Of a DNA stretch of 23,341 nucleotides, positions 2,639-17,578 are shown piece by piece. The notes beneath the pieces were generated by a model. The model saw only the letters and a list, made by a program, of their open reading frames with translations. It made no database searches and was not told the DNA's origin. The translations under genes and the position numbers were made by a program. Location: positions 1-23,341 of IMG/VR virus record IMGVR_UViG_3300049825_000671, one strand, 5' to 3'. Numbering within the stretch: position 1 is the first letter of the stretch; the number at the start of each line of letters is the position of its first letter. The stretch is from a virus.

Positions 2639-2807
2639 GGGCGTAATGTGTATTATGAGCACTGCGAACATAACGTAGTGGAATAAATCGTATTGGTTTG
2701 GGTGACTCGGTACTTGCGGGGCCGAATCCGCTTCTTATTCTGTGGGCCTGTCGCTTCGGAGTGTTTTCCTGAAGCGCGGCAAATACCTTGAAAGGAAGCT
2801 GTTACCA

Positions 2808-3128
2808 ATGAAACGATATTGGGCCGTAGTGCTTTGTACGATGATGGCAATGGGATGTGACACCTACACACTTGTCCCAGAGCCAAACGAATTGCATGAT
2901 GATTGCATTCCGGAAACCGTCACGCGCACACGTGTCCCGTCCGTCTTATTCGACGGGATCTATATAACGTTGTTATGCACTGAGTGCGATGTTGACGAAT
3001 GCAATTCGCTTGGCGCTCGTTGCGATGTTGAAGGCGAGGCGTGCGACTTCTATGGCAAGCTGGGCGTGTGCAAGGGGTGCTGCGATAGCGAGTACGGAGA
3101 ACTGCATTGCGCGTTAGCTAGCTATTGA
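2808..3128 (+). CDS. Cysteine-rich predicted lipoprotein, antisense moron
   Basis: A 106-residue protein on the opposite strand to the late operon. The start at 2808 is chosen because AAAGGAAG lies about 10 nt upstream and because it gives a clean lipoprotein signal: MKRYW, a hydrophobic core (AVVLCTMMA), then a lipobox-like MAMGC with the lipid cysteine at residue 17. The mature part carries ten further cysteines, many in a C-x5-6-C pattern and one CKGCC cluster near the C-terminus, suggesting a disulphide-stapled exported domain. The gene is preceded by its own intergenic region and overlaps the 3' end of the next fibre gene by 7 nt. Known phage lipoproteins in such positions often act in superinfection exclusion or alter the lysogen surface; that role is inferred here. 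Cysteine-rich lipoproteins of this style are common in Myxococcota. Confidence 0.8.
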   Translation: MKRYWAVVLCTMMAMGCDTYTLVPEPNELHDDCIPETVTRTRVPSVLFDGIYITLLCTECDVDECNSLGARCDVEGEACDFYGKLGVCKGCCDSEYGELHCALASY

Positions 3129-9558: not shown

Positions 9559-10748
9559 GGCGGCACCCAATCGGCTGGATCAATGAGTGTGAGCATCGTA
9601 CGCGTTCCGGAGCCATCGCGCTGAAACTGCACGTCTTGAATGTAGTACGTGCCATAAATTCCGTATTCGTCGTCGTCGACTTGAACCGTGGTATCTGGAG
9701 ACCATACCGCGCGATCATTGACGGTGCGGCCATTCAACGCGGGGACCGTGTGTCCCGAGACCGCATAGGATAGGTTCCACGAATCGCGTCGGTCGTCCGC
9801 ACGCATGCGCCAAGCAAGTTTGAGGGCTTCCGCCGCGTTGGAGACGTTATCGGCTCGAGCTGCCCGCCGTCGTTGCCGTGGGAACCCGTAACCGAGCATT
9901 TCGTTGTCGGTGTAGGTCGCTTGGACGGCTTGCTGTCCGGTTTTCGGATCGCCGCCACGGCCAAACACCACGTATTCGCAAAACCGTTTGGCAGTGTCAT
10001 TCTTGAGCGACGCCGTTGTCGAGTTGACGGCGTTTCGCAATTCGCCGCGCCGTCGCAAAATGCTGTAGCGTGGGGGCTGCGTCGTGTTCGGTTCAGTCAA
10101 AACGAACACGGGGCCGCTCCCAACGTCCGCCGATGCGAGCAGAAACAGCCCGCCTTGATCAAGTTCCTTTTTGCAGAATGAATAATACGTCTCGCCAAGT
10201 TTGAGCTGTCCCGCTTTTTTCTTCGCTGTTGTCGACGAACGAGACGCCCGGCCAAACACCGTTCGGGTCGTCGTCGATGGAACCGCAACGCCCGTGCGCC
10301 GATCACGGTTTTGCGTATTCTCGAAGATGAGCGCGTAGTTTTGAACGCCTGCCAAGTCGAGGCACGTCGATACCACGTCTTCGTAGCTTGCGTCGTCAAA
10401 TGAACGATCCACCGACGCCATGGAATCATGCAGCGGCGCAAGGTCATCGCGCCCGTGGAACGTGACTTCTGTCGCGCCCGCGCTTTGTTCTGCGTTGACG
10501 CTGTCGATCCGCCCGGTGAACTGCACGCGCCCCGCAATGAGTAGCTCAAACGGCGTGTTCGGGGGATACTTTTCGAGCAACTCGAGCGTCGTGCCGCCCC
10601 AACCCGTGCGAAGCGCGAACACCGTCGGCTGCGTGAAAAACGACATGCGCACGTCGTAGGATTCGGCGATCAGTAGGTCAGCGCCACCAAGACGCAAGAT
10701 AACCTTGTCGTTGACGCCGCCGAGATCTGTTGACGAAAAGTCAGGCAT
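9555..10748 (-). CDS. Tail hub, late control gene D / Mu gp44-like
   Basis: A 397-residue protein with an N-terminal beta-barrel start (DKVILRLGGADLLIAESYDVRMS), a FxLLIAGRVQFTGRIDSV strand pair (~65-85), and the family hallmark VTFHGRDDLAPLHDSM (~93-108), in place of the FRGRDxxxxLxDSS of gpD/gp44 proteins. A basic insert (~165-190, RASRSSTTAKKKAG) precedes the YYSFCKKELDQGGLFLLA helix-strand and later hub strands. It forms the trimeric hub that joins tube and spike. ATG 10748 has no strong ribosome site. The region just upstream is shared with the divergent plus-strand gene that starts at 10778, so translation of this gene depends on mRNA that runs antisense to that gene. Confidence 0.85.
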   Translation of the reverse strand: MPDFSSTDLGGVNDKVILRLGGADLLIAESYDVRMSFFTQPTVFALRTGWGGTTLELLEKYPPNTPFELLIAGRVQFTGRIDSVNAEQSAGATEVTFHGRDDLAPLHDSMASVDRSFDDASYEDVVSTCLDLAGVQNYALIFENTQNRDRRTGVAVPSTTTRTVFGRASRSSTTAKKKAGQLKLGETYYSFCKKELDQGGLFLLASADVGSGPVFVLTEPNTTQPPRYSILRRRGELRNAVNSTTASLKNDTAKRFCEYVVFGRGGDPKTGQQAVQATYTDNEMLGYGFPRQRRRAARADNVSNAAEALKLAWRMRADDRRDSWNLSYAVSGHTVPALNGRTVNDRAVWSPDTTVQVDDDEYGIYGTYYIQDVQFQRDGSGTRTMLTLIDPADWVPP

Positions 10749-10757
10749 GGTTATGGT
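10730..10757 (+). promoter_or_regulatory. Candidate promoter for antisense gene at 10778
   Basis: TTGACG (10730-10735) and TATGGT (10752-10757) with a 16-nt spacer resemble a sigma-70-type promoter on the plus strand. It lies across the first codons of the hub gene and just upstream of GTGGAG and the ATG at 10778. Transcription would start close to the ribosome site, leaving a very short leader, so this is only a candidate. Confidence 0.28.
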
Positions 10758-10777
10758 TGGCCGTGGAGACGCATCTT

Positions 10778-11329
10778 ATGATTTATGCGACAAGCCTTTA
10801 TGACGAGCGCGGAGAATGCTGGGAGACTCATGATTGCCGTGGATACCACGCAAAAACGCCATTAGATGCGGCACTTAAACGATGGAGTCATGCATGGCTC
10901 AATGATCCGTACACGGACGACGACAACGTCAAGGAATGGCTGAACGGGGAGGATACGCACGCCGCAATCCACGTGATCGCTCGCGATGGCAAGCAATCAA
11001 TCGTAACGTTTGATGTCATTCCCATCGGGTTCAAGTGTTCTCGACGCGGAAAGCGTCGACGTATTGTTTGGAAAATAATCAATACCAAAACGAGAGCTTG
11101 CCCCAAGGCGCACGCGTCTAGATACAAGGCTCGATGGACATGGGTATCCAAGAAACACATCGACGGCGACATCCGCGAAAACGGGAACGATTGGAGCGAC
11201 TTGCACATCGGTTGGTACATTGATCATTTTTGCGAAGCGCAACCATGCAGATGGTGCCTTGATCTTAAGCCGCACGTTGCCTCGACGTTGGGTCATAATA
11301 CCGCAGAATCGTCCCGTTCCGAATCATGA
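10778..11329 (+). CDS. Antisense moron of unknown function, Trp/Cys-containing 183 aa
   Basis: ATG 10778 (MIYATSLYDERGECWETHDC) is chosen over the upstream ATG at 10730, because the hub gene on the other strand already covers that part and because GTGGAG lies about 9 nt before it. It fills a 516-nt gap in the minus-strand genes; those strands have no long open frame there. The protein has about ten Trp, six Cys including CRWC near the C-terminus, several His and a basic central patch (KCSRRGKRRRIVWK). No signal peptide is present. The last ~20 residues are encoded antisense to the gpN-like gene's 3' end and look unstructured. The gene is more AT-rich than its neighbours, as expected for a late insertion. 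No family is recognised; CxxC and His content allow a metal site but this is speculative. Confidence 0.65.
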   Translation: MIYATSLYDERGECWETHDCRGYHAKTPLDAALKRWSHAWLNDPYTDDDNVKEWLNGEDTHAAIHVIARDGKQSIVTFDVIPIGFKCSRRGKRRRIVWKIINTKTRACPKAHASRYKARWTWVSKKHIDGDIRENGNDWSDLHIGWYIDHFCEAQPCRWCLDLKPHVASTLGHNTAESSRSES

Positions 11330-12278
11330 ACGGATCCGGCAACGCGTTGAGCTGCATGATCTCCGCGGCGTAACTCGAATCCCCATAAATAGCCCGTGAC
11401 ACCGCGCCAATGGTCGTATCGGTGCGCGCCTGGAAAAACAGGATGCGTGCCGTTCGAGATTTGACGCTATCACGCAATTGCACAGCGGACGCCCAAAGCC
11501 GCTTGTACGCCCATCGTCGCGAATACATGAGCGGGTTTTGCAAGACTTCGATCCGCTCATACGCTTGCGCGCACGACGTCACGACGGCTTCGGCGTTACG
11601 AATGATCTGGTCTGCAAAACGATCCGGCTGCTCTGCAATCGTCAAGGCTTGCTGATACGCCGATCGAATCTGGTTCAGCGCGTTCGCGTCACGTTGTCGG
11701 AGCTGCGTGAATGCCCCCGCTACCGTCGTGGCACGGGGCACGGTGCCCGCAGGAGGCGGGATGATGCGTGTCGGAGCCGTAGCGCTCACGGTGCCGCCTT
11801 CGAGCAACGGTGCGAATTCTTGATCGAATTGCTCGCCAGCATTCTGCAACGTTGTCGACGATATCTGTACAATCGAATTGATGAGGAACGCTTGCGCTTG
11901 GTCCTCGACGAACTCGAACTCAGCCTCCTCGCCGCTTTGCCGCTCGGGGGTCGCGCGTTGCGACCACGTCACGCAATACGCTTGAATGTCTCCGATCGTC
12001 GGAATGGAAAGCGTCGACGTGACTTGCTGCTGGAACCGATCGCGCAAGTCCGACAAGTCCCCCGGCCAAAGGTTGTCCCCATAGCCGGAAATCTTTTGGT
12101 CGAATACCCCGGTCATTTGGATCCGGTACAGCTTGCGACCAAGCTTTTCAACCGCGCCGCCCGGTGAATGCGGGTACTCGTGCACGTGATCGCGAATGCC
12201 ACCCGACACGATGCAGCTTTTGATCGGGAAATTGATCCCGTCGAATCCTGCTTTAGCGAGTGATTGAAAGGCGGTCAT
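11265..12278 (-). CDS. DNA-circularisation/gpN-type protein with LysM-like C-terminus
   Basis: A 337-residue protein. Residues ~25-135 match the 'DNA circularisation protein N-terminal' pattern of Mu N: HVHEYPHSPGGAVEKLGRK, then RIQMTGVFDQKISGYG, LRDRFQQQVTSTLSIPTIGDI and CVTWSQRATPERQSGEEAEFEFVED, as in the family's HExPxRDxPxVExLGRK. A helical middle (~135-285) is followed by a final ~50-residue segment with TTIGAVSRAIYGDSSYAAEIMQLNALPDPFMIRNGTILRYY, matching a LysM/gpX-type tail module (I...N......I..G..L). In known phages this protein joins tube end, hub and sheath. It overlaps the tape-measure gene by ATGA (12275-12278), and its own 3' end overlaps the plus-strand gene by 65 nt. Confidence 0.82.
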   Translation of the reverse strand: MTAFQSLAKAGFDGINFPIKSCIVSGGIRDHVHEYPHSPGGAVEKLGRKLYRIQMTGVFDQKISGYGDNLWPGDLSDLRDRFQQQVTSTLSIPTIGDIQAYCVTWSQRATPERQSGEEAEFEFVEDQAQAFLINSIVQISSTTLQNAGEQFDQEFAPLLEGGTVSATAPTRIIPPPAGTVPRATTVAGAFTQLRQRDANALNQIRSAYQQALTIAEQPDRFADQIIRNAEAVVTSCAQAYERIEVLQNPLMYSRRWAYKRLWASAVQLRDSVKSRTARILFFQARTDTTIGAVSRAIYGDSSYAAEIMQLNALPDPFMIRNGTILRYYDPTSRQRAA

Positions 12279-14554
12279 TTCGTTGTGTTCGAGGTGTTTG
12301 CGGTTGGACCTGGAGCGCCGCCGGCAAGACTTACTTCGCCGCTAACTTTCAACGGTTTGCCTAGTTGCGCGGACAACTTCTCGATCACGCCGGCAAGGCT
12401 CTTGTAATCAGCAACCAATTGATCTGTTTTGCCCGCGTCGGCTTTCGCGCGCCCCATGTCTTCGATCGACTTGTCGCCAAACGCCACGTTCAACGGATTC
12501 GCAGCATCGTTCATGTTGGTGATGCGCTCACGAATGGACGCTTGCTGCGCTCTTGCCTCATGAAGTGCGTTTATTTGTTCAATCTGTTTTGCACCCTGAA
12601 GTGCTGCATCGCTTTCCGCGTCGCCAGTCGTCTTGGTTGCTCTAAGCGCACGCGATCCACCGACAAGTGCGTCGCCGATCTTTAGGTCTTGTGAGACCGA
12701 CGTATTCACGCCCTTGTCCATTTGGCTCATCACGTTGTCAATGGCCAACATGCCAACAGACGCAATAGCAATGGACGCCGCGACGATCGAGAGAGCATTG
12801 CCGACGTTCAAACCGGCGCCACTTGACGCACCTTTGATGAGACCTTCGACCGCGCTGCTGACGGACGCGCCAATTGCTGCTTTGCCAATGCTTGCCACGA
12901 CAGCCCCCGTAATCGCCGTGCCTGGGTTCTGCGATGCCCACGAGATCATTTTGGCGAATGCTTCGACGACTTTGATGATCGTCGGTTCCGCCTTGATGAG
13001 TTCGGGCAGGACCTTTTCCGCCATCGCTCCACCGATTTCACCGAGCTTGTTGTTGAAGAGTTGCACTTGCGCGGCGCTGGTCTTCATGCTCGCTTTGAAC
13101 GAGTCGTTTTCTTCGTCTGCGGATATCGCTTTGCCAAAGGTATCGAACAGCTCGTCAATGGCTTTCTTGCCGGCCATATCGGCCTTCGTCTTGTCCTTCG
13201 TAACTTCGATGTTTGCGCGGAACGCCTTGGAATATGCTTGAAACGCAGGGTCCGCAGCTTGGGCGCCCTTTACGTTGGCAAACATCTTTTTGAATTCGAT
13301 CGGTGCCTCGGTACCACCACGGGATACGGCGGCCGCCGACGAATCTTTCAGAATGTCCCGAACTGATTTGAATCCGCCGTCTTTGTTGTATACATCGACG
13401 CCGTGCGCTTTGAACTCTTTGACGCGCGCTGGGGTTTTAAGCGTATTCGCAAAACCTGCGACGGACGTAGCTGCTTCGGCTGCACTTGCAGCGCCACCCC
13501 GAGCGATTGAAAGCTGGGCAAGCGCACCCATATCGCCAAGGTTTTTGGCAGAATCGCCACCAAATGCTTGCGATGCAGCGGCAAGACGGCCGCCGTACTT
13601 GGCCATGTCTTTCAGTTCGGCCGCGCCAATCTTGCCCTGTCCCGCCTGAAGGCGAAGGACATCGACAAGCGCTTTCCCCTTCTCAGCAGCCGTCTCAAAT
13701 GCTTTGCCGGGGCCGACGTCGCCAAGCGCCTTCGACGCTTCACCAGCCGCACCGACTATGTCTTCAAGGGTCGTACCCGTTGCTCGCGCAAGCTTTGCAA
13801 GTCCAGGAAGTGCCGCTTGTCCCGTCGCCAGATCACCCGTCTTGCCGACGAATGATTGGAGCCCCTCTAGCACCTTCGACGGGTCGAACGCCGCCTGTTG
13901 GCCGACGTCGCGTCCAAGTCTGACGAGCGACTTCGGGTCGATGCGCTTGCCCTTGTCGCGCTTTTCATCGTAAGCTGAGTTCGAAAGGTCGGAAGCTCGC
14001 GTCTCGAGCTCTACCGCGCTGCCAACGTACGAGCCAAGGTCGGTTTGAACGCCCGCGCCCCGAGCAATGCTTCCAGTGACGCCAAGCGCACCACGCCCGA
14101 TCTTGCCGAGCGTTTCCATGGAGCCGCTGCCAATGGCTCGTGCACGCCCTACGTTTGCCGAACGCTCTTCCTTTTGCGAACGCTTCCATTCGCGGATCTT
14201 GTCGGCGCCACGTTTGAATTCCGCGTTTTGCAACTCGCGTTGCGTTCGTTGGACCTCCGCCAGTTGTTTACGTTGCGCCCGTTCCTGTTCGGCGACGATG
14301 CGTCGTTGTTTCCGTGTCTCGATCGCGACGACTGTATCTGCCGCTCGTTCCGCCTCACGAACAACGCTTCGATATGGTCCGCCACCACTGGCACGTTTTG
14401 CCGCGCCACGACCATTGACCGCGGCCCATGCGCGATCCATCTCGGCTTCGATCTGACGACGTGCGTCTTTCGCCGCTTCGATGATGGGTCGGAATGCACT
14501 GCCGACGTTTTTGTCGACGGAACATCCAACGCGAATGCGTATGGATTCGGCCAT
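12275..14554 (-). CDS. Tail tape measure protein, 759 aa
   Basis: The longest gene in the window and in the tape-measure position, after the chaperone genes and before gpN. The N-terminal ~170 residues are charged and helical with a strong coiled-coil stretch (~50-130: REAERAADTVVAIETRKQ, EQERAQRKQLAEVQRT). The middle is helical and Gly/Ala-rich, with the recurrent DMAKYGGRLAAASQAFG-type phage tape-measure segment and residues such as GVDVYNKDGGFKSVRDIL typical of TP901-type tape measures. Residues ~545-605 hold hydrophobic helices (TAITGAVVASIGKAAIG, ALSIVAASIAIASVGML) that may enter the host membrane during DNA ejection. Using the usual ~0.15 nm per residue, the tail would be about 110 nm, similar to Mu; this is inferred. 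Confidence 0.9.
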   Translation of the reverse strand: MAESIRIRVGCSVDKNVGSAFRPIIEAAKDARRQIEAEMDRAWAAVNGRGAAKRASGGGPYRSVVREAERAADTVVAIETRKQRRIVAEQERAQRKQLAEVQRTQRELQNAEFKRGADKIREWKRSQKEERSANVGRARAIGSGSMETLGKIGRGALGVTGSIARGAGVQTDLGSYVGSAVELETRASDLSNSAYDEKRDKGKRIDPKSLVRLGRDVGQQAAFDPSKVLEGLQSFVGKTGDLATGQAALPGLAKLARATGTTLEDIVGAAGEASKALGDVGPGKAFETAAEKGKALVDVLRLQAGQGKIGAAELKDMAKYGGRLAAASQAFGGDSAKNLGDMGALAQLSIARGGAASAAEAATSVAGFANTLKTPARVKEFKAHGVDVYNKDGGFKSVRDILKDSSAAAVSRGGTEAPIEFKKMFANVKGAQAADPAFQAYSKAFRANIEVTKDKTKADMAGKKAIDELFDTFGKAISADEENDSFKASMKTSAAQVQLFNNKLGEIGGAMAEKVLPELIKAEPTIIKVVEAFAKMISWASQNPGTAITGAVVASIGKAAIGASVSSAVEGLIKGASSGAGLNVGNALSIVAASIAIASVGMLAIDNVMSQMDKGVNTSVSQDLKIGDALVGGSRALRATKTTGDAESDAALQGAKQIEQINALHEARAQQASIRERITNMNDAANPLNVAFGDKSIEDMGRAKADAGKTDQLVADYKSLAGVIEKLSAQLGKPLKVSGEVSLAGGAPGPTANTSNTTK

Positions 14555-14559
14555 TTAAT

Positions 14560-15144
14560 TCACGAGTTGCCGTTCAACACTTCAATCGCGGCTTTGATCA
14601 ACCGTCGCGCTTTGCGCTCTTGCTCCAGTGACATCCCAGCGAATGCGCCGTCCGCGACAAGCATGTCCGCCAGCGCAAGCAATTCGTCATCCGTCGCTTC
14701 GGGCGCAATCGGTGAATGCGATACCGTGAACGCCTCGTAATGATCCCACAAGAACCGAATGCCGTCCGGCGTGAGGTCGAGGAAGATCTTGACGTCAGCA
14801 ACTTCAAAGAACCGACGATCCGTGCTCTCTGGATGGCACGTTGCTTCCGCCATGAGTAGGCCAATCAGCCGCGAATTGAAGCAGTCGATCCGGTTCGCCT
14901 CATCGTCTGGATTCTGATGCTCGCGCCAAGCATGATTTGCCGCGATGGTTCGGCAACGCTCGAGTTCCGCTTCGGGGAGCAAGCGCAACCCCACCTTGAC
15001 TGGCGCGGATGGTTTCGACGGGCGTCCATCAGCCCAAAGAGCAGGCGGAAGTTCAACGAAGCTCACAGGCTTCTTTGGCGCTTCGGCCTGCTTTTTGGCG
15101 AACGGGCTTGGTGGCCCAGTGCGTTTGAATGCGGAGGGATTCAT
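14560..15144 (-). CDS. Protein in second tail-assembly-chaperone position, 194 aa
   Basis: ATG 15144 overlaps the upstream gene's TGA (ATGA). It is also in the -1 frame relative to that gene, directly after a TGA in the same frame (see the slippery site). The N-terminal ~65 residues are Pro/Lys-rich (SAFKRTGPPSPFAKKQAEAP, then PAPVKVGLRLLPEAE), and the rest is mainly helical (AELERCRTIAANHAWREH, FLWDHYEAF, ELLALADMLVADGAFAGM). The predicted helical, acidic nature and placement between tube and tape measure fit the T-type half of a lambda G/GT or Mu/P2 chaperone pair that coats the tape measure. No sequence motif proves this. It ends 5 nt before the tape-measure start. Confidence 0.65.
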   Translation of the reverse strand: MNPSAFKRTGPPSPFAKKQAEAPKKPVSFVELPPALWADGRPSKPSAPVKVGLRLLPEAELERCRTIAANHAWREHQNPDDEANRIDCFNSRLIGLLMAEATCHPESTDRRFFEVADVKIFLDLTPDGIRFLWDHYEAFTVSHSPIAPEATDDELLALADMLVADGAFAGMSLEQERKARRLIKAAIEVLNGNS

Positions 15145-15737
15145 TCAGGGCTTTGCGTCTGCGACTCGTTTGGCGCGGAGCTGTTTGAGTGCGAGCCATA
15201 GTGCGATTTGTCCGGCGCTGAGTGATACAACGCATTGGCCAAAAAATGCATATAACTCGCTCGCGCGCTCGGCCCCCACTTCCAAAAAGGGAGATCGTCA
15301 GCACCCACCTCCGAGGTCACGATCTGGTGCGTCGCCGCCATCATTTCTTCAGGCGACAATCGCTCTTTGCGCATGCCGTGATCCTCTTGAATGCGTTGCT
15401 GCATTTCGTAGAGGTACGATACGCGGTCACGATCGAGCCCTTGAAGGATTTCGTTCGCGTCGGTGAAGAACGGTTGCCCCTTGTCATCACCGTCCACGGA
15501 TTGGCACGCGAGAACGAGCGTGCATGCCCAAATGCACATGACGTAGCGGGGATCTTCCGGCGCGGGCTTGCTCGTTCCTTTTGGATCGAACAGAGCAAGC
15601 GCCTTGTCGATTGCGTCCTTTTCTTCCCACGCAGAGATGGGACGCTGCCCGATCACGATTGGATTCTCGTGACCAGGCAACATCAGCTCCGTGGGGCGAA
15701 CGTCCGCTTGGCCTTTTACAAGCGCCGCGAATTTCAT
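15141..15737 (-). CDS. Putative tail-assembly chaperone, first part, 198 aa
   Basis: It starts at ATG 15737, overlapping the tube gene's stop (ATGA). The protein is helical and acidic in places, with strands at the start (FAALVKGQADVRPTELML), then ISAWEEKDAIDKALALFDP (~34-52), PRYVMCIWACTLVLACQS (~62-80) and LDRDRVSYLYEMQQRIQED (~99-118). It has the small-protein-before-tape-measure position of G/E-type chaperones. Codon 166 is the last base-set of a T_TTT_TTG heptamer; normal decoding adds a Ser/Asn/His-rich tail (HSNSSAPNESQTQSPE), whereas a -1 shift would give a helical 31-residue end and a protein of 197 residues. No biochemical activity can be assigned from sequence alone. Confidence 0.7.
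   Translation of the reverse strand: MKFAALVKGQADVRPTELMLPGHENPIVIGQRPISAWEEKDAIDKALALFDPKGTSKPAPEDPRYVMCIWACTLVLACQSVDGDDKGQPFFTDANEILQGLDRDRVSYLYEMQQRIQEDHGMRKERLSPEEMMAATHQIVTSEVGADDLPFWKWGPSARASYMHFLANALYHSAPDKSHYGSHSNSSAPNESQTQSPE
15240..15246 (-). other. Candidate -1 programmed frameshift site T_TTT_TTG
   Basis: On the minus strand, codons CAT-TTT-TTG at 15248-15240 give the heptamer T_TTT_TTG in the correct zero frame, the same heptamer used by P2 E/E'. A -1 shift leads into GQCVVSLSAGQIALWLALKQ and ends at TGA (15147-15145), one codon before the next gene's ATG (15144) in that same frame. Confidence 0.55.
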
Positions 15738-16111
15738 ACGAGTTGGATGTTCCCCGACGACTCGAACTTGAACGTACCCTCGAACTTGCCGTTTTGCGCT
15801 TCGGAGCTACCCGAGAACGAAATACATCGGCACGTCACGACGAACACGCGAGTTGCGAGCGTCGCCTGAATCTCGCACTCTAGTTTGCCCAAGATGATGT
15901 CGACGATCGCGGCCTCATCGCCGCCCGTGAGCGCGACGATCGTCTTGACCTCGAAGTCGAGCGTCGCAACGCCGTCGCTATGGCCAAGCACGCCTTCCAA
16001 AACGATCTGTCGCTCGTCGTTCGAGTTGAGTTCCGGGCTCGTCCCGGTGACGTTTGCAATCGCCTTGTCATTGAGGCGAATGAACTGCGGCTGAATTCGA
16101 TTGTTTGCCAC
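15734..16111 (-). CDS. Tail tube protein (Mu gpM-like)
   Basis: A 125-residue protein with a GTG start at 16111. Its position between sheath and chaperone genes is exactly that of Mu M. The sequence is mostly short beta strands around one helix, as expected for the tube fold: NRIQPQFIRLNDKAIA, a VLEGVLGHSDGVATLDFEVKTIV hairpin, then AAIVDIILGKLECEIQATL, and a closing FKFESSGNIQL. A very good ribosome site (AGGAGG) lies 5 nt before the GTG, fitting the high expression needed for the most abundant tail protein. It is the inner tube through which DNA passes. It overlaps the chaperone gene by 4 nt. Confidence 0.8.
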   Translation of the reverse strand: MANNRIQPQFIRLNDKAIANVTGTSPELNSNDERQIVLEGVLGHSDGVATLDFEVKTIVALTGGDEAAIVDIILGKLECEIQATLATRVFVVTCRCISFSGSSEAQNGKFEGTFKFESSGNIQLV

Positions 16112-16123: not shown

Positions 16124-17578
16124 TCAGCCGTTATTGGTTTGGCGGATCTGCCCGCCAAGCTGGTGATTCCCGTTCGCAATTTCTGCTGGAAACACGAACA
16201 TGATTCGATTCGCAATCGGGTCGAATTGCGAGAACGGCAGATTGTTCGCCACGTCGGTGATGACGGGAAGCCCCGACGACACGACGTTTGCCGCGCCTTC
16301 CGCAAGGTCATACGCGTATTTCGTGAGGGTTTTGGTCCAAAGCGCCGGGAATGCGATGCCGGGCTTTGGCGGCCGTTCCCCCGTTCCGGGATCGTCTTGC
16401 ACGCGCGGGTTGTTCGCGATGAACGATACGCCCATTCGATAGATTCCACGACGCGCAAAGTCCGGCGCCGATGCACGCTCGGTGCCCAACGTGCGGAAGT
16501 CCGCGACGCTGCTTGACAAACACTTCGTCGTGATGCTCCGGATGATGACGGCGTCGCCATTGTCGTGTGTGGTTTGCGGAGCAATGCCCGTGAGCGCAAA
16601 GCCGTCGTATTGCGACGATGCCGCAGGGTCACTCTGCTCGAACACCGAACGGTGCGCCGTCCATCGCGCCGCCATTTCGGACGGATGCGACTCGCCATTT
16701 TGCATCGCCAAAAGCTGCAACCGTTCGGCGTTCATGGTGACCGTGGCGAGCGTTGTTGCCGCCGAAAGGCTCGTGTTGAGTCCGACGACGCCGAGTTGCA
16801 GAATGCCCACGTCCCATGCCGATTGATTGTTCAGCCACGTTTCGATGATCGGTAGGTTTGTCGTGTCGTTCTGCGCAAATTCCGTGCTCGACATGGTTGA
16901 CAGAAGCGTGGTGACGTCTTCCGTGCCTGCGCCGTTTACAAATACAACGCCGCCTCCAGTGACCGCCGCGCCGCCTGCAATCGCGCTCGAAATCGTCGAC
17001 GGAAGCAACGTTGTATCCTGCATCAGAATGTACTGATTGCCTCGGATACCGGCACACTTCGCCGTCAACGTGACGACGTTTGTCGAGACGGTTGCCGTGA
17101 CTGGCAAATCGGTACGAGCATTGACAGCAGCGCCGATCGCCGTGGCAAGCGCGTTTTGCGTGACCGTCGTGCTCGTTGCTCCGGAAAGCGCAATGCCGCC
17201 GATACGATACCGCCATTCACCCGTTGCCGCATGCACTGGCGTCGACGTGATGGTGATCGTGGCCGTCGCCGCAACAGCACCACCAGCTGGCGCTGGGCAT
17301 GCGATCCAAAGCTGGACGCCAGATTCACGCAGCGCCTGATACGCCATGCGCGCGGCTTCGCTTCCGACCTGCACAAGCGCATCAACATCGTTTTTCGACA
17401 ACGCGAGTTTGGGCGTGCCGTCGTTCGTAATGGTGCCCGTCGAGCCCTTCAGCCCAACAACGAGACATTTGAGCGGGGCGCTCGCGTTGGAGATTTCGCC
17501 GGCGCCAAACACCGTCTCCATGTAAATGCCCGGCACTTTGAATGCCGACGTGAATCCTGAAATGACAATCGAAGACAT
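16124..17578 (-). CDS. Contractile tail sheath protein (Mu gpL-like)
   Basis: A 484-residue protein, near the ~495 of Mu L. The N-terminus has the sheath pattern (FTSAFKVPGIYMETVFG), followed by an N-terminal beta domain (LKCLVVGLKG). A variable, Thr/Val-rich insertion (~105-200) contains AATATITITSTPVHAATGEWRY, as in Mu-like sheaths whose surface domain is built from such strands. The C-terminal half has the conserved helical/strand core, including RASAPDFARRGIYRMGVSFIANNPRVQDDPGT and the YDLAEGAANVV helix. AGGA about 5 nt before ATG 17578 is a good ribosome site. Around the tube, the sheath contracts to drive it through the envelope; its presence defines a myovirus. Confidence 0.9.
   Translation of the reverse strand: MSSIVISGFTSAFKVPGIYMETVFGAGEISNASAPLKCLVVGLKGSTGTITNDGTPKLALSKNDVDALVQVGSEAARMAYQALRESGVQLWIACPAPAGGAVAATATITITSTPVHAATGEWRYRIGGIALSGATSTTVTQNALATAIGAAVNARTDLPVTATVSTNVVTLTAKCAGIRGNQYILMQDTTLLPSTISSAIAGGAAVTGGGVVFVNGAGTEDVTTLLSTMSSTEFAQNDTTNLPIIETWLNNQSAWDVGILQLGVVGLNTSLSAATTLATVTMNAERLQLLAMQNGESHPSEMAARWTAHRSVFEQSDPAASSQYDGFALTGIAPQTTHDNGDAVIIRSITTKCLSSSVADFRTLGTERASAPDFARRGIYRMGVSFIANNPRVQDDPGTGERPPKPGIAFPALWTKTLTKYAYDLAEGAANVVSSGLPVITDVANNLPFSQFDPIANRIMFVFPAEIANGNHQLGGQIRQTNNG

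Follow-up and report, generated by a model that had tools for sequence, protein, structure and literature searches.

Does the gene lying between the tail tube and tape measure genes of this virus specify a second product through a programmed −1 ribosomal frameshift, and if so, at which codon would the ribosome slip? The window examined here is the whole stretch of 23,341 nucleotides that makes up positions 1 to 23,341 of the IMG/VR record IMGVR_UViG_3300049825_000671, in which a first-pass annotation had assigned the shift to the heptamer T_TTT_TTG. As described below, it is very likely that this gene (gene A) undergoes programmed −1 frameshifting, and we estimate a probability of roughly 0.9 that the shift is of the lambda G/GT or P2 E/E' type and takes place at another heptamer, C_CCU_UUU. 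This reading is based on sequence comparison and modeling, namely, a conserved heptamer, a conserved domain in the −1 frame, three relatives in which only a shift gives access to this domain, a chaperone-like predicted fold, and gene order. The features discussed are summarized in Table 1.

Table 1. Features of the tail module in the window relevant to the proposed frameshift
Feature	Position	Strand	Remark
Tail sheath	16124..17578	minus	phrog_165, E 2.6e-34
Tail tube protein	15734..16111	minus	assigned by position after the sheath
Gene A (G), tail assembly chaperone	15141..15737	minus	zero-frame ORF, 198 aa
SD-like CGGAGGTGG, candidate stimulator	15305..15313	minus	13 nt 5' of C_CCT_TTT
C_CCT_TTT, likely frameshift site	15285..15291	minus	slippery heptamer; in frame, 45 nt (15 codons) upstream of T_TTT_TTG
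T_TTT_TTG	15240..15246	minus	codons CAT-TTT-TTG, zero frame of gene A (198-aa ORF, 15737-15141)
T domain, −1 frame, 48 codons (PFLEVGAERASELYAFFGQCVVSLSAGQIALWLALKQLRAKRVADAKP)	15148..15291	minus	conserved in 7 loci
−1 frame stop TGA	15145..15147	minus	
Zero-frame tail of G	15141..15284	minus	dual-coded with T domain; low conservation
Zero-frame stop TGA	15143-15141	minus	
Gene B, second chaperone-like gene, 194 aa	14560..15144	minus	start codon overlaps the gene A stop
Tape measure protein	12275..14554	minus	phrog_28, E 1.2e-10

Gene A is situated between the tail tube and tape measure genes, and the second chaperone-like gene, gene B, intervenes before the tape measure. The tube protein gave no significant family match in Pfam or PHROGs and is 97% and 68% identical to those of two relatives. 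We also noticed that the sheath of the window is the shorter by 28 residues when compared with those of the relatives L002 and L003, the small internal gaps being near YARIA and near QDGDRWTTSEQDTLLNNGVTPVT in L002, and that the sheaths of two other relatives (L015:9781-11544 and L016:4753-6516) are 587 aa long, against 484-512 aa in the group of the window, with an apparent internal insertion.

Six homologues of gene A were identified, each of which is located between a tube gene and gene B, and the comparison set hence comprised the window and L002, L003, L006, L014, L015, and L016, representing five distant lineages. All seven loci were drawn from a virus contig collection, and two of them are close (85% identity). 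L002 (85% identical to the window) and L003 (about 50-54%) were retrieved by a search of viral contigs with gene A, L006 and L016 via the sheath, and L014 and L015 by a DNA pattern for the −1 frame peptide that included no slippery site; the gene A identity to the window is 24-30% in the latter four. In Pfam and PHROGs, gene A had no match except for a weak one of L006 to phrog_508 (E 0.003), and the curated Pfam cut-off was reached by none of the gene A, T domain, or gene B sequences scanned. A recognizable gene A was also absent from a cultured-phage collection, while a search of cultured phages and plasmids with gene A and the sheaths returned only Bordetella phages (23%), through the sheath of L016; a search of genome contigs gave no result.

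The −1 frame of gene A is genuine, conserved coding sequence, as had been proposed at first reading. Across the seven loci, the −1 peptide starting from the heptamer follows the family pattern PF....A.RFA.EL..[FY][FY]G.....LT..Q[IV]..W. When the zero-frame peptides were fixed, synonymous codons redrawn, and the similarity of the −1 peptides scored, the observed similarity had a z of 16.4 in six loci, a value reached in none of 5000 redraws; in five distant loci and with the heptamer codons left out, z was 13.2 and none of 3000 redraws was as high. The T domain encoded there is predicted by AlphaFold to be a helix-turn-helix of two helices with a pLDDT of 93.5, and a Foldseek search of a viral library with this domain returned nothing significant. 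Furthermore, the window has a stop codon in the −1 frame at two codons before the heptamer C_CCT_TTT, and L016 has one at three codons before it; the shift is thus bounded from the 5' side.

Exactly two in-frame heptamers of the X_XXY_YYZ form occur in gene A of the window, C_CCT_TTT and T_TTT_TTG, the former of which had been overlooked. A single in-frame heptamer is by itself unremarkable, because a mean of 1.58 per gene is expected when the synonymous codons of gene A are redrawn. What distinguishes the two is their conservation: C_CCT_TT(T/C/A) stands in the zero frame at the homologous codon in all seven loci, and T_TTT_TTG is found only in the window and L002. The codon preceding C_CCT_TTH varies (CTC, AGC, and TTC), with its last base always being C, and CCT is rare in these loci, accounting for 4-14% of the proline codons. 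Given the peptide, a slippery heptamer would arise at this position by chance with a probability of 0.0025-0.0775 per locus, and multiplication over six loci (L002 left out) gives a combined chance of about 1e-10 if the lineages are independent. In tail chaperone papers of the open literature, no CCCTTT heptamer was found.

A GGAGG sequence is also present 5' of C_CCT_TTH in all seven loci, albeit weak or off-spacing in L006 and L015. In the window, the duplex of the SD-like CGGAGGTGG with the anti-SD sequence has a calculated energy of −14.0 kcal/mol, which is reached at 0.3% of background positions. Upstream SD-like sequences have been described to promote backward frameshifting (PMC10274946), and the element may have such an effect here. 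As for a downstream hairpin or pseudoknot, no consistent or common RNA structure was evident among the loci.

Regarding T_TTT_TTG, the first-pass annotation was correct in that the heptamer is in frame, that the −1 frame remains open for 31 further codons up to the TGA, and that the ATG of the next gene (15144-15142) directly follows this TGA in the same −1 frame. Its assignment as the frameshift site was, however, not borne out; the heptamer is disrupted in five of the six other loci (L003, L006, L014, L015, and L016), where the zero frame is still open, and it was rejected as the site. The corresponding sequences are TTTTTTG (L002), TTTTATG (L003), TACTTTG (L006), TACTACG (L014 and L015), and CACTACG (L016), which read in the −1 frame as Phe-Phe, Phe-Tyr, Tyr-Phe, Tyr-Tyr, and His-Tyr, respectively, followed by a constant Gly. 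The T-run is therefore explained by the −1 frame, which encodes a conserved aromatic pair with Phe-Phe codons in the window, and T_TTT_TTG is probably a by-product of these Phe-Phe-Gly codons and, at most, an auxiliary site.

Such an auxiliary role constitutes a refinement of, rather than an exclusive alternative to, our preferred reading: in the lineage of the window, both heptamers would act, with C_CCT_TTT as the ancestral and main site and T_TTT_TTG as a second site with slight slippage. Indeed, both are in frame and enter the same open −1 frame, but the second site is not conserved and its product would lose most of helix 1 of the T domain, and we regard this possibility as rather unlikely. 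It is far less probable that T_TTT_TTG is the site, as in P2 E/E', with C_CCT_TTT being incidental. While T_TTT_TTG belongs to the canonical heptamers, is in frame in both the window and L002, and also precedes the −1 extension of the chaperone in Bordetella phage PBb001 with a similar gene order, its loss from five of the seven loci and the origin of its T-run in the aromatic pair argue against this; moreover, the stretch of 14 −1 frame residues that separates the two heptamers is conserved, which would be unexpected if it were never translated.

Instead of being reached by a shift, the −1 frame might represent an independent, overlapping gene that has a start codon of its own and GGAGGTGG as the ribosome binding site. 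In the window, TTG and GTG are indeed available at two and four codons after the start of the heptamer, with the SD-like sequence upstream, but this element is about 20 nt from them, too far for ordinary initiation. Also, upstream of the conserved EL, the −1 frame of L006, L015, and L016 contains no ATG, GTG, or TTG, and the T domain in these three loci is therefore reachable by frameshifting only. Internal initiation, which furthermore leaves the conservation of the slippery heptamer unexplained, was thus rejected and seems hardly credible. A sequencing or assembly indel, or a pseudogene broken at a homopolymer, was likewise rejected and has a negligible probability, since the frames do join at C and T runs but the same arrangement recurs in seven contigs with both frames open, which for the zero frame has a chance of about 1%.

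With the shift at C_CCT_TTT, the products would be nearly equal in length. The lengths of 197 aa (GT) and 198 aa (G) reported at first reading hold, but the shifted part starts further upstream, so that, in GT, the part read at that time is preceded by 14 different residues (LEVGAERASELYAF instead of WKWGPSARASYMHF). Across the loci, 45-83 further zero-frame codons follow the heptamer, and in six of the seven the −1 domain terminates ahead of the zero-frame stop, extending beyond it only in L016. Judging from the reading frames, the T domain of the window is nested wholly inside the tail of G; because the shifted product is not longer than G, this represents a variant of the G/GT layout and not the standard one, although a longer product is unneeded for the mechanism.

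The zero-frame tail itself is open in all loci, for which the joint probability by chance is the 1% given above. In the reverse redraw test, its z was 6.1 in six loci and 3.1 in five distant loci, as compared with 3.2 and 2.1, respectively, for the unused +1 frame as a control; the tail is therefore only weakly conserved. Disorder is predicted for the C-terminal 25-28 residues of G, with a mean pLDDT of 32-46 over the last 28.

The first-pass annotation had also described the layout as a G/GT overlap with a stop in the joint that may be a variant solution. It is not a variant fusion with the next gene, which is a separate homologous chaperone: alignment of the gene A profile with that of gene B by hhalign gave a probability of 94.9 and an E-value of 4.5e-8. 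Five of the relatives have gene B in the corresponding position, and the contig of L002 ends just after the gene B start. On this sequence evidence, genes A and B form a tandem of homologous, chaperone-like genes upstream of the tape measure. None of the seven loci has gene B fused to the −1 frame; the frames of the two differ in L014 and L016, and in L006 the distance from the −1 stop to the gene B start exceeds 100 nt. Fusion with the next gene was accordingly rejected, as every one of the seven loci has a stop between the two. In the window (15147-15141), L002, and L003, the joint reads TGAATGA, in which the −1 stop, the zero-frame stop, and the ATG of gene B fall within seven bases. Both frames thus stop at the start codon of gene B, which suggests that, in these three loci, gene B would be translationally coupled to either product.

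Gene A had been annotated as a chaperone gene between tube and tape measure, and this is supported by both gene order and the predicted fold. The model of G (mean pLDDT of 69) matched the HK97 tail assembly chaperone 2ob9 with a VIA-align Z of 9.3 (rmsd of 3.5 over 99 residues), followed by YqbN (3klu; Z of 7.4), whereas unrelated structures had Z values of 3-5. No plain Foldseek E-value for the G model was significant when taken alone, and its matches in the viral library included many tail assembly chaperones, weakly. The gene A product hence resembles, in the predicted fold of its first about 118 residues, the tail assembly chaperone of HK97; the sequence identity is, however, 9%, and HK97 is a siphophage whereas the phage of the window is contractile-tailed.

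Among known systems, the lambda heptamer is G_GGA_AAG, whereas that of the present family is C_CCT_TTH. Furthermore, the shift in lambda occurs close to the 3' end of G and makes GT clearly longer, while the T domain of about 46 residues in the window is inside the G tail. A −1 slip with an upstream SD-like stimulator and a shifted product that is not longer is also known in dnaX (tau/gamma), in which the shift ends translation quickly; in the window, the shift would add a folded domain. The likeness to lambda gpG/gpGT is a −1 shift within a gene upstream of the tape measure gene; the minor chaperone made in this way differs in having an alternative domain at its C-terminus (PMC5009743). The binding partner of both G and GT in lambda is the tape measure, and that of T is the tube protein (PMC5009743).

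Two other myophages (L007 and L022, the latter being Bordetella phage PBb001) encode a chaperone of the PF10109 family between the tube and tape measure genes and, like P2 E/E', share with the window the order of sheath, tube, chaperone, and tape measure, a short −1 extension, and a resembling motif (YYG...LT...W in L007 and ASEF...L...I.FW in L022). In L022, the −1 stop is also coupled to the start of the next gene, as in the window. The G proteins of these two are, however, 89-96 aa long and terminate about 12 codons past the slip site, as opposed to about 200 aa for gene A, and the second chaperone gene before the tape measure sets the window apart from them. Gene A had no match to PF10109 (Phage_TAC_7: E, 41, 14), to which L007 and L022 match at about 1e-12. 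Their −1 extensions matched P2 GpE (PF06528) weakly (E-values of 0.0015 and 0.01), and four −1 peptides of the window family scanned against the same model gave no match. Since the comparison of the T profile with the −1 peptides of L007 or L022 by hhalign was weak (probability of about 4%, E 0.011), the likeness of the T domain to these extensions is suggestive only.

From these comparisons, we propose the following mechanism. The majority of ribosomes would stay in the zero frame and produce G (198 aa), which has the chaperone domain and the disordered tail. A minority would slip back by one base at C_CCU_UUU (15291-15285), with tRNA-Pro moving from CCU to CCC and tRNA-Phe from UUU to the UUU one base back, and this slip may be promoted by pairing of the SD-like GGAGGTGG, 13 nt upstream, with the anti-SD of 16S rRNA. 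The slipped ribosomes would then read the 46-residue helix-turn-helix T domain in the −1 frame and terminate at the TGA at 15147, yielding GT (197 aa). By analogy with lambda gpG/gpGT, G would coat the tape measure, and the T domain of GT would recruit the tube protein. As a more tentative and rather doubtful proposal, the frameshift would pick between two C-terminal tails of nearly the same length on the same DNA, both under selection, with one being disordered (G) and the other folded and tube-binding (GT), and the duplicated second chaperone would have taken over part of the job of G.

A divergent lineage, with a gene A unmatched in Pfam, PHROGs, and cultured phages, would thus join the tail-chaperone frameshift family, and its T domain indicates that such a domain can sit wholly within G. 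Genes of this kind would go unnoticed by annotation pipelines in which a shifted product has to reach beyond the zero-frame stop. Also, a visible heptamer can mislead, and only the comparison of relatives picks the real site.

Apart from the chaperone locus, a DNA methyltransferase-like reading containing DPPYG (about 6390-5651, minus strand) was noticed inside the tail module; it seems to be divided between two reading frames (ORFs 6870-5866 and 6046-5651), which may reflect a broken gene or a sequencing indel. Two plus-strand ORFs (10730-11329 and 2742-3128) oppose the direction of the tail module and look like added, moron-type genes, one of which encodes a cysteine-rich possible lipoprotein.
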